64,000 nt of DNA, taken from Henriciella sp. AS95. Lineage in GTDB: Bacteria; Pseudomonadota; Alphaproteobacteria; Caulobacterales; Hyphomonadaceae. The translations under genes were made by a program, and so were the position numbers. Position 1 is the stretch's first letter, and each line of letters starts with the position of its first letter. Of this stretch, positions 3,302 to 46,710 are shown in pieces. The notes beneath the pieces were generated by a model. It saw nothing but the letters and a program-made list of their open reading frames with translations, was not told where the DNA came from and made no database searches. The stretch is taken from assembly GCF_038900055.1 (NCBI RefSeq), contig NZ_JBBMQM010000001.1:3596001-3660000 (forward strand), given 5' to 3'.

Positions 3302-3910
3302 CTATTGTGCCTGCTGCCGCGCGGCAAACATCTCTTCCCAGTCTGTGGGGCCTGCCGTGAAGCTGTTGTGCAAGGCACGTAGGGAATAGGCATTTCCTTC
3401 GACGAAGAACTCCCGCAACCGCTTTGACTCCTCGTCATCGCCATAGCCGACGCCGCTAATCGTGACGAGGGTCCGGGTGTCTGAAACCGGGTCGAATTCG
3501 AACACCGAGACCAGCCGGTCGAGCGTTTCCTGCGAGGCAAACCCGGGCGGCGCCTGAACCGTCTTCAGGACGAGTAACTCTTGCGGGAGATAGGCGAGGA
3601 TTTCGAGCTTGATATTGTCGCTCTCTCCGGCCTGAGCGTCGAGCTCGTAGCTGCTCTCTATCTGTCCGCCGATTTCAAGATCAATCACAGCAAACGGGGT
3701 CGCCCAGGCCATGTAGCCTTCTGATGTGGTGAACGCGTCCCAGACGTCAGAAACAGGCGCATCCACAATGATTGTCTGTTCCAGAATGTTTTCAGTCGTG
3801 ACGGTTTCGACGACACCAGATGGCAGCGCTGTTTCCTCGACAGGTGTTTCGGAAGACACGCAGGCGGCAAGCGCAAGCAATAGTGACGCAATGCTTATAG
3901 CAGGTTTCAT
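3302..3910 (-). CDS. SRPBCC (START/AHSA1-like) lipoprotein
   Basis: 202 residues. The N-terminus MKPAISIASLLLALAACVSS is a lipoprotein signal (L-A-A-C). The mature part has the START/AHSA1 pattern: TIIVDAPVSDVWDAFTTSEGYMAW followed by IGGQI and the C-terminal helix YGDDEESKRLREFFVEGNAY. SRPBCC proteins form a hydrophobic ligand-binding cup; the ligand is unknown. An exported, lipid-anchored member is less usual than the cytosolic ones but is seen in marine alphaproteobacteria. Monocistronic by spacing. Confidence 0.82.
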   Translation of the reverse strand: MKPAISIASLLLALAACVSSETPVEETALPSGVVETVTTENILEQTIIVDAPVSDVWDAFTTSEGYMAWATPFAVIDLEIGGQIESSYELDAQAGESDNIKLEILAYLPQELLVLKTVQAPPGFASQETLDRLVSVFEFDPVSDTRTLVTISGVGYGDDEESKRLREFFVEGNAYSLRALHNSFTAGPTDWEEMFAARQQAQ

Positions 3911-42116: not shown

Positions 42117-43610
42117 ATGTCTACCGCGCTCCTGATCTTCCCCCACCAGCTCTTCGACCACCACCCCGGCCTCGACAAGCGGCCGCGCCGGATCTGCCTC
42201 ATTGAGGACACGCTGTTCTTCGGGGATCGCCAGTATCCGATGCGCTTTCACAAGCAGAAGCTGTGGCTGCACCGCGCCTCAATGATGCGCTATGCCAAGC
42301 GGCTGGAGCGGCTGACACCGCAATTTGAGTATATCCGCTACACGCCCGGAAAGCCGCTGCTGGAGCCGACGATCAAGCGCCTCGCCGATGCCGGCATTGA
42401 CGAGATCATCGCCTGCGACCCGGTCGACTTCATCCTCGAAAAGCGCCTGCGCGCCTATTGCGAGGCCGAGGGGCTGGACCTCAAGCTGCTCAACAGCCCG
42501 ATGTTCCTCAACACGCCGGGCGAGAACCGGGCCTGGCGCGAGGACCATAAATCCTGGTTCATGGCCGAGTTCTACAAGCGCCAGCGCCGCCATTTCGGCG
42601 TGCTGATGGAGGGCGATGCGCCGAAGGGCGGCCAGTGGAGCTTTGACGAAGAGAACCGCAAGAAAGTCCCGAAAAAACGGCGTGATAACCCGCCGCGCCT
42701 TCGCCCGCGTGAGCCGAGCAAGCTGGAAGAGCAGGCCCGGCGCGAGATCGAAGAAGACTTCCCGGACAATTACGGCTCGCTGCGCGATATCTACTGGCCA
42801 ACCAGCCATGAAGACGCCGAAAGCTGGCTCGGCAAGTTCCTGTCAGAACGGTTCGAACTGTTCGGCCCTTATGAAGACGCGATCCTGGCGCGCGAGGGCC
42901 TGCTCTGGCATTCGGCGATCACACCCATGCTGAATATCGGCCTGCTGACGCCGAAACTGGTGCTGGATGCGGCGATGGCCGTGATCGAGGCGCGCGACAT
43001 TCCGATGAACTCGGCAGAGGGGTTCGTGCGGCAGGTCATCGGCTGGCGCGAATTCATGCGCGCGACCTATGAAGACCTTGGCGTGGACATGCGCAACGGC
43101 AATCACTGGGGTCATGAGCGGCCCCTGCCGGAGAGTTTCTGGACGGGCGAGACGGGCATCGGCCCCATCGATGACACGATAAAAAGGGTCCTGAAAACAG
43201 GCTATTGCCACCATATTGAGCGGCTAATGGTACTCGGCGGGTTCATGTTCATCTGCGAGATTGATCCCAAGGACATCTATCGCTGGTTCATGGAAATGTT
43301 CGCCGATAGCTATGACTGGGTCATGGTGCCGAATGCCTATGCGATGAGCCAGAATGCCGATGGCGGCCGTATCACGACGAAGCCGTATTTCTCCGGCTCG
43401 GCCTATATTCGCAAGATGGGCAACCATGAGACGGGTGAGTGGTGCGATATCTGGGACGGGCTCTACTGGCGCTGGATCTGGCGCAACCGGGAGACGCTGT
43501 CCGGCAATCCGCGCTGGGCGATGATGGTGTCCATGGCCGAGAAGATGGATGAGAAAACCTTACAAGGGCATCTTGAGACGGCGGCGAATTTCCTGCGGGG
43601 ATTCCGGTGA
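42117..43610 (+). CDS. cryptochrome/photolyase-related protein (PhrB/FeS-BCP branch)
   Basis: 497 residues. The N-terminus LLIFPHQLFDHHPGL, the middle GGQWSFDEENRKK, and the FAD part (ADGGRITTKPYFSGSAYI, WDGLYWRWI, MNSAEGFVRQVIGWREFMR) belong to the photolyase-related class that includes the (6-4) photolyase PhrB. In that class a Y-C-x2-C segment and later Cys bind a 4Fe-4S cluster; here that loop is shortened (RKMGNHETGEWCDIWDG) and only the last Cys is clear. Blue-light DNA repair or signalling. Divergent from dnaX. Confidence 0.87.
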   Translation: MSTALLIFPHQLFDHHPGLDKRPRRICLIEDTLFFGDRQYPMRFHKQKLWLHRASMMRYAKRLERLTPQFEYIRYTPGKPLLEPTIKRLADAGIDEIIACDPVDFILEKRLRAYCEAEGLDLKLLNSPMFLNTPGENRAWREDHKSWFMAEFYKRQRRHFGVLMEGDAPKGGQWSFDEENRKKVPKKRRDNPPRLRPREPSKLEEQARREIEEDFPDNYGSLRDIYWPTSHEDAESWLGKFLSERFELFGPYEDAILAREGLLWHSAITPMLNIGLLTPKLVLDAAMAVIEARDIPMNSAEGFVRQVIGWREFMRATYEDLGVDMRNGNHWGHERPLPESFWTGETGIGPIDDTIKRVLKTGYCHHIERLMVLGGFMFICEIDPKDIYRWFMEMFADSYDWVMVPNAYAMSQNADGGRITTKPYFSGSAYIRKMGNHETGEWCDIWDGLYWRWIWRNRETLSGNPRWAMMVSMAEKMDEKTLQGHLETAANFLRGFR

Positions 43611-43650
43611 TGTGGGGTGGGGGATGGATCGGCGTTTCGGGACGTGAATT

Positions 43651-43705
43651 GGCAGGCCGATTATAGGCCGATTTCAGGCCGATACTGGGTCGATTTTGGG
43701 TCGAT
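43651..43705. repeat. five tandem 11-bp units
   Basis: Contiguous units GGCAGGCCGAT, TATAGGCCGAT, TTCAGGCCGAT, ACTGGGTCGAT, TTTGGGTCGAT. All share the last three bases GAT and G at position 4 or 5; the period matches about one DNA turn. Located just after the photolyase-related gene. Confidence 0.75.
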
Positions 43706-43728
43706 GCATGTGAGCACGACCCACGAGA

Positions 43729-43805
43729 CGCCATGGTGAGCGAAGTCGAACCATGAAGAGGCCAGACGCGCCCGCCGCGATGGTTCGACTTCGCTCACCA
43801 TGGCG
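43729..43805. repeat. 26-bp perfect inverted repeat
   Basis: Arms 43729-43754 and 43780-43805 are exact reverse complements (right arm contains TGGTTCGACTTCGCTCACC) around 25 bases. A related element is at 39227. No T-run follows. It is an interspersed palindromic element rather than a simple terminator. Confidence 0.8.
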
Positions 43806-43834
43806 GCTTTGAGAGGCCGCGCCCCACCTCCGAA

Positions 43835-43856
43835 GATACCTGCGCAGGCAGGTATC
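43835..43856. repeat. 9-bp perfect palindromic hairpin
   Basis: GATACCTGC, loop GCAG, GCAGGTATC. It closes a cluster of repeat elements between the photolyase-related gene and the AT-rich island. Bases 43857-44026 hold no gene I can support. Confidence 0.6.
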
Positions 43857-44026
43857 CATGGGGTGACATCAAATCCAATTATGAGGTCACTGGCGCGCCA
43901 GGTATTGACGACGAACTTGTAAGGTCCGGCGGGTTATGTGTTTGATTTGGGAGTGCTCATTGGGCGAGGTAGCGGAGTGGCGGATACCCCGTCATTTCAA
44001 ACGATAAACCTGAAGCGGTGTCTGAA

Positions 44027-44323
44027 ATGAAGCGTGTCTTGTACAGACGTTTAGCAATCGTGAGCGGAGCGATTAACGCGATGTATTTTTTTCGCGCCTA
44101 TCCCGCCTCAGCGCTTGCAGGTTATTCGACTGAGCCAGTCCTGGTTCACAAGCTGCTACTGGTCTGGGCCCTGATTCTTATGGTCCTTACATTTATTTAT
44201 TCCGTCGTCCTGGCCAGGAATGAGATCCCGAATCTGGCGTATTTTGTACACATCGTGTCGGCGGGAAACATCTTCGTGTGTGCAATGCTTATACTAAGCC
44301 TGATCATCGGATTCAGGTTTTGA
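44027..44323 (+). CDS. hypothetical three-helix membrane protein
   Basis: 98 residues from ATG 44027 (GTG 44018 is a possible earlier start). Hydrophobic segments near residues 8-26, 42-62 and 70-95, ending in LILSLIIGFRF. No family recognised. Base composition drops here (A/T-rich codons), unlike the GC-rich flanks. First gene of the putative island containing the sigma-54-driven deaminase. Confidence 0.55.
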   Translation: MKRVLYRRLAIVSGAINAMYFFRAYPASALAGYSTEPVLVHKLLLVWALILMVLTFIYSVVLARNEIPNLAYFVHIVSAGNIFVCAMLILSLIIGFRF

Positions 44324-44452
44324 GATTTGAGAACAACATACGCCGTCCGCTTCTCGCAGACTATTTTACAACGTTATTCCGATAGATCGCCATCGTTTTG
44401 CGAAGCGTTTCGAGCCCGCAGGACTCTTCCGGGGTCATCAGTTTTGCGTGTC

Positions 44453-44523
44453 CGATCTGTTTCAGGCCGTCAAGGGCGCTTCGCGTCCGCAGGATTACAC
44501 CCTTGACGGCCTGAAACAGATCG
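44453..44523. repeat. 24-bp perfect inverted repeat, 23-bp spacer
   Basis: Arms 44453-44476 and 44500-44523 are exact reverse complements (left arm begins CGATCTGTTTCAGGCC). No T-run follows on the plus strand. Relative to the predicted transcription start at about 44619 it lies at -166 to -96, the range used by sigma-54 activator binding sites. Confidence 0.85.
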
Positions 44524-44539
44524 AAAAGGGCTGGCTATG

Positions 44540-44566
44540 GCCAAATGGCAGGGTCTGCCATTTGGC
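44540..44566. repeat. 11-bp inverted repeat
   Basis: GCCAAATGGCA (44540-44550), loop GGGTC, TGCCATTTGGC (44556-44566). Perfect stem between the 24-bp repeat and the sigma-54 promoter. Confidence 0.8.
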
Positions 44567-44592
44567 GTGAATGAATCAACCAAAAAGGGAAA

Positions 44593-44608
44593 TGGCACGA
44601 TTATTGCT
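44593..44608 (+). promoter_or_regulatory. sigma-54 (RpoN) promoter of the deaminase gene
   Basis: TGGCACG-ATTA-TTGCT is identical to the RpoN consensus TGGCACG-N4-TTGCW with GG and GC ten bases apart. The expected start is near 44619, 23 bases before ATG 44642. An IHF-like AATCAA-N4 site at 44574 lacks the TTR half and is only a weak candidate. Confidence 0.8.
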
Positions 44609-44641
44609 CTCGTCTCAGGATAACAACCGGAGATAGATAAT

Positions 44642-45217
44642 ATGGCAAATGAAACTGAATGGGATTTACGTTATCTGGAGTTGGCCCGACTTGTCGCAGG
44701 CTGGTCGAAAGACAAGGCCAAGGTCGGCGCAGTTCTAGTTCTCAACAATCGAGTGGTTGCAACTGGTTTTAACGGTTTTCCGACCAACGTTCTCGACGAT
44801 GAGAGGTTGAGTCTGAAAGCTATAAAGCAAATCATGGTAGTGCATGCCGAAGTGAACGCACTGCTTGTCGCGGGCGATAGAGCGCGTGGAGCCACCCTCT
44901 ACGTTCACGGCAAACCGATATGCTCTGGCTGCGCGGCGCTCATCATTCAAGCGGGAGTCGAGAGAATTGTTTCCCCAAGACCTGAACAGGCAAGTAATAG
45001 TAATGAAGAGCCCCAAGGCACCAAGGAACCTGGGGATATAGACTGGAACCACCGAGGCCTGGTCGCAAAAGAAATGTTCGCCGAAGCTGGAATCAAAGTT
45101 CACCACATCGAGGCTGAACCGACCCGAAAGGTCAAAACCACCGACGACGGTGCTCATGTTACGAAGTTGGCAAACGACGAAGCAAAAAGTGCTCGAAAGT
45201 CAGTCCAAAAGAAGTGA
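44642..45217 (+). CDS. dCMP deaminase-family protein
   Basis: 191 residues, GGAG 9 bases upstream. WDLRYLELARLVAGWSKDKA, VGAVLVLNNRVVATGFNGFP, zinc/catalytic H-A-E (MVVHAEVNALLVAGD) and P-I-C-x2-C (GKPICSGCAALIIQAGVERIV) are those of deoxycytidylate deaminases, which make dUMP from dCMP; the P-x-C-x2-C form is a known variant. After the core, WNHRGLVAKEMFAEAGIKV is typical, and a basic tail (AKSARKSVQKK) is extra. Regulated by the sigma-54 promoter. Probably acquired, given the AT-rich codons. Nucleotide-pool or phage-defence role is inference. Confidence 0.85.
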   Translation: MANETEWDLRYLELARLVAGWSKDKAKVGAVLVLNNRVVATGFNGFPTNVLDDERLSLKAIKQIMVVHAEVNALLVAGDRARGATLYVHGKPICSGCAALIIQAGVERIVSPRPEQASNSNEEPQGTKEPGDIDWNHRGLVAKEMFAEAGIKVHHIEAEPTRKVKTTDDGAHVTKLANDEAKSARKSVQKK

Positions 45218-45263
45218 CCATTTTCGCGGTGATTGGGCGCACGCCCGCGTCAAGAAAAGGACA

Positions 45264-45478
45264 GAGGTAGCTCTAAGGCTGTCACGGTTGCCCCTCGGGG
45301 TAGCCGGCCCTTGGCCGGGCCCTAAAGGACCGTTGCTCGGGCTGCTACCTCCCGATTTATGAACCTAACGGCTGCTATCCGCCGGTGAGGGACTCGCGTA
45401 ATCTTGCGAGGTAAGCCTCTTCCTCGTTCGTCCAAATGCCGCGTCGCCCGAGCCGTTAGCAATAGCAGTGCCTAGCAG
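45264..45478 (+). ncRNA. candidate structured RNA region
   Basis: No gene fits 45218-45678. Several complementary pairs occur in order: GAGGTAGC (45264-45271) with GCTACCTC (45344-45351); CCGGCC-CTT-GGCCGG (45304-45318) inside; CTAACGGCT (45365-45373) with AGCCGTTAG (45451-45459), enclosing CTCGC/GCGAG (45393-45410) and GAGG/CCTC. CTGCTA occurs twice and TAGCAG twice. A folded RNA or a recombination site is possible; the strand is assumed from the upstream gene. Confidence 0.35.
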
Positions 45479-45578
45479 CCGATGCGGTCATGAAGTTTAA
45501 GCATGTTATGCTCCTTCTTCATTGGAACTAAACATGAACACAGATTCGTTTCGAATGCAAGATGTTATTGCTTGAGAT

Positions 45579-45594
45579 CCCCGCCTTCGCGGGG
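45579..45594. repeat. short GC-rich palindrome (REP-like)
   Basis: CCCCGC, loop CTTC, GCGGGG. Single copy, without spacers, so not a CRISPR. It marks the right edge of the AT-rich stretch. Confidence 0.5.
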
Positions 45595-45678
45595 AAGATC
45601 GGAAGATTGATGCATCGCCATCCCCTCCCTGCCATGCTACGACCGCACCAATAACAATGGAGCTGGAGGAAAACGCTC

Positions 45679-46461
45679 ATGAGGATGATGTTTGCGGCGG
45701 GGCTTGGCCTTGCGATGTTGGGGGCGTGTGCGACGCCGGTTTCCGAAGAGGAAGAGGTGATTGTCATGACCGAAACACAAGCTGCCATGCCGATGCCGCC
45801 GCTGACCATCTATCACCTTGAGGGGCGCCGCTCTGAGCGGATTGTCTGGCTCATGGAAGAGCTGGAAATGCCCTATGAGCTTGAATATGTGCGCGGCGAT
45901 CTTGGCGCGTCGATGGCCAAGGTGCGCGCGCTCGGCCATGAGATGCCGATGGTGCCGACGGTCGTGCTGGGCGATGAGATCCTGGTCGAGAGCGGGGCGA
46001 TCATCGAAACGATCATCAACCGCTATGCGCCGGGCGAGCTGACGCCGGACATTGCCAGCCCCGACTATGCCAAGCACCTGATGTGGCTGCACTATGCCGA
46101 GGGCTCGCTGGCCGCGCGCCTGTTCAGCGATTACCGCGCCTGGATGGCCAATCCGCCGAAACAGCGCTCGCCGCTGGTCGATAGCGAGGCGGTGGTGAAC
46201 TATTCGGAGAATTACCTGGAAGAGCATGACTATTTCGGCGGGGCGGACTTCTCGTCGGCCGACATCATGATGTGGTTCCCGCTCAACGTGGCGACCAAGC
46301 TGAACCTTGTCGATGAGGCGCAATTCCCGAAGATCGCGGCGTGGAAAACGCGGGTCGAGGCACGGCCGGCCTATCAGCGCATGCTGGAGAAAGCGCGGCC
46401 GGACGGTATTCCGGGCATGCTGACCCCTGTGCCGCAACGGCCGCCGTCTGAGCGGGGTTAA
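45679..46461 (+). CDS. GST-fold protein with lipoprotein signal
   Basis: 260 residues, GGAGGAAAA just before ATG 45679. MRMMFAAGLGLAMLGAC is a full lipoprotein signal (L-G-A-C), then a short Glu-rich linker, then a GST: PLTIYHLEGRRSERIVWLME, the cis-Pro MVPTVVLGDEILVESGAIIE, and helical domain (LMWLHYAEGSLAARLF; FSSADIMMWFPL). GSTs are normally cytosolic; anchoring one in a membrane with the periplasmic space as its site is odd. Similar to the protein at 38587. Confidence 0.85.
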   Translation: MRMMFAAGLGLAMLGACATPVSEEEEVIVMTETQAAMPMPPLTIYHLEGRRSERIVWLMEELEMPYELEYVRGDLGASMAKVRALGHEMPMVPTVVLGDEILVESGAIIETIINRYAPGELTPDIASPDYAKHLMWLHYAEGSLAARLFSDYRAWMANPPKQRSPLVDSEAVVNYSENYLEEHDYFGGADFSSADIMMWFPLNVATKLNLVDEAQFPKIAAWKTRVEARPAYQRMLEKARPDGIPGMLTPVPQRPPSERG

Positions 46462-46498
46462 GGCGCGCGCGCCTCTTCGACGGACAGAGATTGACGAG

Positions 46499-46524: not shown

Positions 46525-46710
46525 CGTTATGGCGCTGATTGTGCGGAAAAGCGGAGACTGGACAGTGACCCGAAGGGAAACTCGTTAGGGCTGCTTCGTT
46601 CCCGACCTGACCCAGTTGGCGAGGACTTCGTCCACCGCCAGCCTCCTGACGCCTATATCGCGATTTGAAACCGGGGTGACAAGGGGGCGGATGCTGATAG
46701 GTATCGGGGC

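Follow-up and report, generated by a model that had tools for sequence, protein, structure and literature searches.

The window analysed here is a 64-kb stretch (64,000 nucleotides) of the genome of Henriciella sp. AS95, a marine bacterium of the Hyphomonadaceae. Within it, between a photolyase-related gene and the small SRP RNA gene, lie a small deaminase gene preceded by a sigma-54 promoter motif, a conserved non-coding segment directly downstream of it and a crowd of repeats. Positions are those of the window, with the strand given where one applies:

42117..43610, + strand: photolyase-related protein gene (DPRP), the conserved left flank of the region (PF04244, E=8.7e-49), found in 21/29 genus genomes
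43653..43706: 11-bp tandem units (43653-43696), part of a dispersed repeat found at about nine other places in the genome
43726-43754 / 43780-43808: 29-nt inverted repeat, a dispersed genomic repeat
43835..43856: 9-bp hairpin within a dispersed repeat
44018..44323, + strand: small membrane ORF, an orphan that may not be a gene
44436..44575: double hairpin element, dispersed in the genus, with matches in 14/29 genomes
44593..44607, + strand: exact sigma-54 (RpoN) promoter motif, TGGCAC-N5-TTGC
44642..45217, + strand: single-domain dCMP-type deaminase of 191 aa, with H68, E70, C94 and C97
45257..45520, + strand: predicted structured non-coding RNA, conserved, ends approximate, modelled core 45336-45502
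45285..45306, + strand: RNA stem H2, whose bases differ in each species
45372..45468, + strand: RNA helix X, 45372-45378 with 45462-45468, CTGCTAT/ATAGCAG versus GGCCAT/ATGGCC
45393..45410, + strand: RNA apical hairpin H3, 45393-45397 with 45406-45410, rebuilt in each species
45679..46461, + strand: GST-like lipoprotein gene of host-like composition, itself variable within the genus
46550..46646, - strand: small SRP RNA gene (ffs; RF00169, 58.4 bits), whose 3' end is the right border

The first-pass annotation had described an AT-richer island here, and the composition agrees: GC content is 52.1% in 43900-45500 compared to 60.4% for the 64-kb window, the 1.6-kb stretch poorest in GC across all 64 kb begins at 44001, and GC3 is also low (deaminase 0.51, membrane ORF 0.58, flanking genes 0.79–0.84). 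The proposed comparison with close relatives came out in the same direction, as the island is not shared by all of them and the gap is empty or otherwise filled in congeners. There is support, then, for a variable and compositionally foreign segment at 43.6–45.5 kb.

Comparison across the genus shows this segment to be acquired cargo of a Henriciella defence hotspot, which extends from the photolyase-related gene to the SRP RNA gene and stops at the latter's 3' end. In two genomes (G027, G028) ffs lies within ~30 bp of the photolyase-related gene and is followed by a NUDIX gene, while in other congeners the gap measures ~0.3–4.7 kb and differs in content. Since the sequences of the compared congeners switch right at the ffs 3' end (AAGCGGAGACTG), we place the borders of the variable region at 43610 and ~46549. 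One genome (G005) has an extra 75-nt, 85% identical copy of the ffs 3' part (L143, 3078-3152). This copy lies ~500 bp from the real SRP RNA gene (3619-3719), a layout that would result if an insertion at the ffs 3' end had pushed the original end aside.

Six congeners have known or candidate anti-phage genes in this gap, including one weak match: G006 has a complete CBASS (cyclase 3e-96, E2 1.9e-62, 2TM/Cap15-type effector 6.8e-63), G001 an AbiC/AbiP-like protein, G024 a methyl-directed restriction enzyme, G003 a DUF3644/PDC-S19 protein, G017 an HNH nuclease and G007 the weak match, which is AbiJ-like. The CBASS genes occupy L147 2879-5377, with the locus oriented so that the photolyase-related gene reads forward. 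Of ten control proteins run through PADLOC, drawn from the window genes flanking the gap and from the gap cargo of other congeners, none matched apart from a weak NUDIX match and, for one G026 gap gene, a subtilase. Because these six congeners carry anti-phage genes in the same gap, a defence context, which had been put forward as conceivable, is likely here by association, and this association is the chief ground for giving the window's cargo a defence role. In most of the defence-bearing congeners the defence gene abuts ffs; here the GST gene intervenes. With its conserved flanks, variable cargo and known defence genes in several genomes, the gap can be classed from these comparisons as a defence hotspot. 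Defence hotspots at the 3' ends of tRNA and other small RNA genes are known, and the Henriciella site resembles them in its conserved flanks, in cargo that varies from genome to genome, in junctions at the RNA gene 3' end and in the partial copy of that end in G005. It differs in using the SRP RNA gene and in having no integrase among the ORFs listed. No description of a defence hotspot at the SRP RNA gene was found in the part of the literature that our searches covered.

The repeats that the first-pass annotation had placed at the island edges are all present at those positions, among them a palindrome on the right side at 46460-46477. They do not mark its edges, however: the repeats on the left and the 44436-44575 hairpin have many further copies in the genome or genus, the hairpin element reaching up to 12 matches in a single one of the 29 genus genomes (the arms of one of its hairpins lie at 44453-44476 / 44500-44523). 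Its dispersal likewise rules it out as the left end of a mobile element bearing the deaminase, and its match to mir-310 in Rfam, which is under the gathering score, is an artefact of a perfect hairpin. Copies of the double hairpin in the window and in H. pelagia (L018 2001-2128) keep their arms through compensatory changes, and the loop in H. pelagia is the reverse complement of that in the window. The membrane ORF at 44018-44323, which had been drawn into a unit with the deaminase, was found nowhere else and that unit is not upheld; as it has neither a family nor a plasmid match, its status as a gene is uncertain.

The deaminase was correctly assigned from the letters to the dCMP deaminase family (PF00383, E=4.7e-16, 59 bits against a cut-off of 25), and its best family match is the phage dCMP deaminase phrog_174 (E=1.2e-36). 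Residues H68, E70, C94 and C97 are invariant in 16 aligned homologues, and the active site is intact. The predicted structure (mean pLDDT 81.5) has as its top Foldseek matches the dCMP or dCMP/dCTP deaminases of human, PBCV-1, T4 and S. mutans, and the modelled fold is that of dCMP/dCTP deaminases. The enzyme shares this fold and the catalytic residues with phage-type and cellular dCMP deaminases (PF00383; phrog_174; T4, PBCV-1, S. mutans, human), and differs from them in ~14–20 extra residues between 113 and 135, in a charged C-terminal extension absent from the 15 other aligned homologues, and in having a conserved RNA and a putative sigma-54 promoter next to its gene. Apart from the added loop and tail, it is an ordinary dCMP deaminase.

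A search of 398 order genomes at E<=1e-20 found matches in this genome and H. aquimarina alone, and a GTDB scan with the deaminase protein gave no match. The H. aquimarina deaminase is 63% identical and contains one in-frame TAA, which may reflect recent decay or a sequencing error. Between the two genes pN is 0.26 while synonymous sites are saturated (pS 0.83), so purifying selection has acted on the deaminase. Two of its closest alphaproteobacterial homologues, at L090 and L111, adjoin a phage-like exonuclease gene, and at L111 also a helicase gene, on reading of the sequences by eye. Another Henriciella deaminase, ~37–41% identical, lies in G006 (L012, 587-1947) divergent from an apparent dCTP deaminase-type gene; the two form a second nucleotide-related pair in the genus.

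The exact RpoN motif that had been noted upstream lies 49 bp from the deaminase ATG here and 50 bp before the orthologue in H. aquimarina (L010). As the motif alone is not rare (8 occurrences in the genome versus 5 for the reversed control, not clearly above control), the case for a promoter is that of a conserved distance; the motif itself is plain, and we infer its activity. The genome has five strong matches to sigma-54 activators, which, assigned by reading the sequences, look like PspF, NtrC, NtrX and two response regulators, and the PspF-like activator adjoins apparent phage-shock genes. Control of the RtcR type was rejected, none of the five resembling RtcR when judged by reading rather than by profile search.

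Directly downstream of the deaminase gene and on the same strand is a non-coding segment of ~250 nt. The first-pass annotation had seen complementary stretches in it and left its conservation to be checked; 45257-45520 proves to be conserved in H. aquimarina LMG 24711 (G002; 83% over an aligned 237 nt) and H. pelagia LA220 (G008; 80% over 305 nt), with compensatory changes. A covariance model finds it in 3/398 order genomes, namely these two and the present one, at the same locus in each. Three stems (H2, helix X and H3) are made from different bases in the relatives, and the core alignment has four pairs changed on both sides versus 0–1 with the partners slid. Stem H2 leans on G-U pairs of the + strand and is weaker on the opposite strand in 3/3 sequences. 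Several invariant complementary segments could pair alternatively or as pseudoknots; the comparison comprises three sequences only, and support for structure is confined to H2, helix X and H3. Although the folding energy of the segment by itself is ordinary (z = -0.85), we consider the segment real because it is conserved with compensatory changes in two relatives. These changes establish the structure, the G-U pairs favour the strand of the deaminase, and we infer that the segment is transcribed.

Rfam 15 has no match to this RNA above the gathering score, only weak ones below it, and the RNA is an undescribed family of very narrow distribution. Phages yielded no match to the window copy and plasmids none to the H. 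pelagia copy. Viral contigs from two scans that share 15- or 17-mers with the RNA were ruled out, nothing being alike past the word, and a third scan of viral contigs gave one 17-mer match. A GTDB scan with the 5' motif GGACAGAGGTAGCTCTAA returned the two known Henriciella genomes and no others, and the RNA model had no match of note at 25 other deaminase loci. Two further order genomes gave weak model matches (E 0.02 and 0.07 per genome), which we put down to chance given the 398 genomes searched. Known classes of element were also considered. An AGCAGCC-like stretch raised the possibility of a diverged SRP RNA copy, which was rejected as local alignment scores fall inside the shuffled range and there is no SRP match by covariance model. 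An integron attC is ruled out by the right-end GTTRRRY core, which is not conserved (CCGTTAGC in the window versus CCGTCAGC in both relatives), and a housekeeping RNA by absence from 26/29 genus and 395/398 order genomes. Nor is the segment coding: its frames are short and in the window copy hold several stops, and indels distinguish the versions of the apical hairpin. In the 5' part (45285-45345) H. aquimarina and H. pelagia are more alike than either is to the window, unlike the photolyase-related gene, which places H. pelagia nearest the window; recombination within the RNA is possible on this pattern.

The RNA is kept in both relatives, in H. aquimarina together with the deaminase carrying the in-frame stop and in H. 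pelagia with the deaminase absent and an unrelated gene in that place pointing away from the RNA. This H. pelagia gene (L018 1061-1996) encodes a membrane/coiled-coil protein, for which no Pfam or PADLOC match was found, and its longest ORF overlaps the RNA in antisense. Presence of the RNA without a working deaminase fits an antitoxin that outlives its toxin and fits equally an RNA with a job of its own. The association of RNA and deaminase is not independent evidence, since it comprises three RNAs and two deaminases, all at one locus.

The closest known parallel that we considered is AvcID, a type III toxin-antitoxin anti-phage system consisting of the deaminase AvcD and the inhibitory RNA AvcI. 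The AvcI transcript is just under 300 nt, with a minimum of ~171 nt, and inhibits deoxycytidylate deaminase (PMC10511110). The Henriciella locus is alike in combining a zinc deaminase of deoxycytidylate type, with its active site at H68, E70, C94 and C97, and an adjacent structured RNA of a length similar to AvcI. However, the deaminase here has 191 aa compared to the 60-kDa AvcD, lacks the N-terminal NTPase-like half of AvcD and has a putative sigma-54 promoter, and the RNA lies downstream of the gene rather than beside its start. The PADLOC dCTPase model is covered only over 438-484 of 630, far under its cut-off, and the NCBIfam model antiphage_deaminase reaches 29.2 bits against a cut-off of 400 over a short active-site stretch only. 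Lacking that half of AvcD and with its RNA downstream, the Henriciella system is not a member of AvcID.

By analogy, the locus may nonetheless encode a small anti-phage system of AvcID-like kind, and this is the reading that we tentatively place first while holding it to be short of an even chance. The RNA would bind the deaminase and hold it back until a phage shuts off host transcription, or until a sigma-54 activator, for instance PspF, is switched on under stress; once the balance tips, the deaminase would drain dCMP/dCTP and phage DNA synthesis would fail, as in AvcID. Counted in favour of an RNA-restrained deaminase are its place among hotspot cargo, the foreign composition, the intact active site, purifying selection, the sigma-54 motif at a conserved distance, the conservation of the RNA with compensatory changes, its retention without a working deaminase and the precedent of AvcI. 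Counted against it are the missing N-terminal half of AvcD, the downstream position of the RNA, the GST gene between cargo and ffs, and the fact that an independent RNA would account just as well for an RNA found without deaminase. Because the retention pattern would also be expected of an independent RNA, another explanation ranks closely behind and is itself a serious if minority possibility: a nucleotide enzyme captured from a phage or prophage and placed under sigma-54 control for dUMP supply or stress, with the RNA as an independent regulatory neighbour. The phrog_174 match, the exonuclease genes beside the homologues at L090 and L111 (with a helicase gene at L111) and the persistence of the RNA in two relatives without a working deaminase all favour such a capture, whereas the position of the gene in a gap that congeners fill with anti-phage genes, and the nearly identical distribution of the RNA (3) and close deaminase homologues (2) in 398 genomes, do not.

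It is also conceivable, but improbable in our estimation, that the conserved 300 bp act as DNA, for example as an anchor for recombination or insertion whose hairpins function as DNA while cargo is swapped beside them. The abrupt left edge at AAGGACAG, past which the sequences of the three species are unrelated, would suit such an element, as would the change of neighbouring genes, with either the deaminase or an unrelated gene on the left and either GST or FAD monooxygenase on the right, but the dependence of stem H2 on G-U pairs, which leaves it weaker on the opposite strand in each of the three sequences, argues for RNA; moreover all copies lie at one locus with none elsewhere in the genome, and terminal repeats and an integrase were not seen. 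Least probable of all is a role for the RNA as long 5' leader or as regulator of the downstream GST lipoprotein gene. The two occur together in the window and H. pelagia, with 85% DNA identity, but in H. aquimarina the RNA precedes a convergent FAD monooxygenase gene rather than GST, and the GST gene of G004 has no RNA before it.

The RNA-restrained deaminase can be extended to a minimal RNA-controlled defence in which a single-domain dCMP deaminase and an undescribed RNA are gated by sigma-54, possibly through PspF, within a new hotspot at the SRP RNA gene; this fuller combination we regard as doubtful. If restraint by the RNA proved true, RNA-held nucleotide-depleting deaminases would extend past the two-domain AvcD family, and sigma-54 would represent a new way of arming such a system. 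Whatever the mechanism, an undescribed structured RNA stands, as does a variable site at the SRP RNA gene that gathers different anti-phage genes across one genus. This site may be mined for new defence genes, for example among the cargo of H. pelagia and G005.
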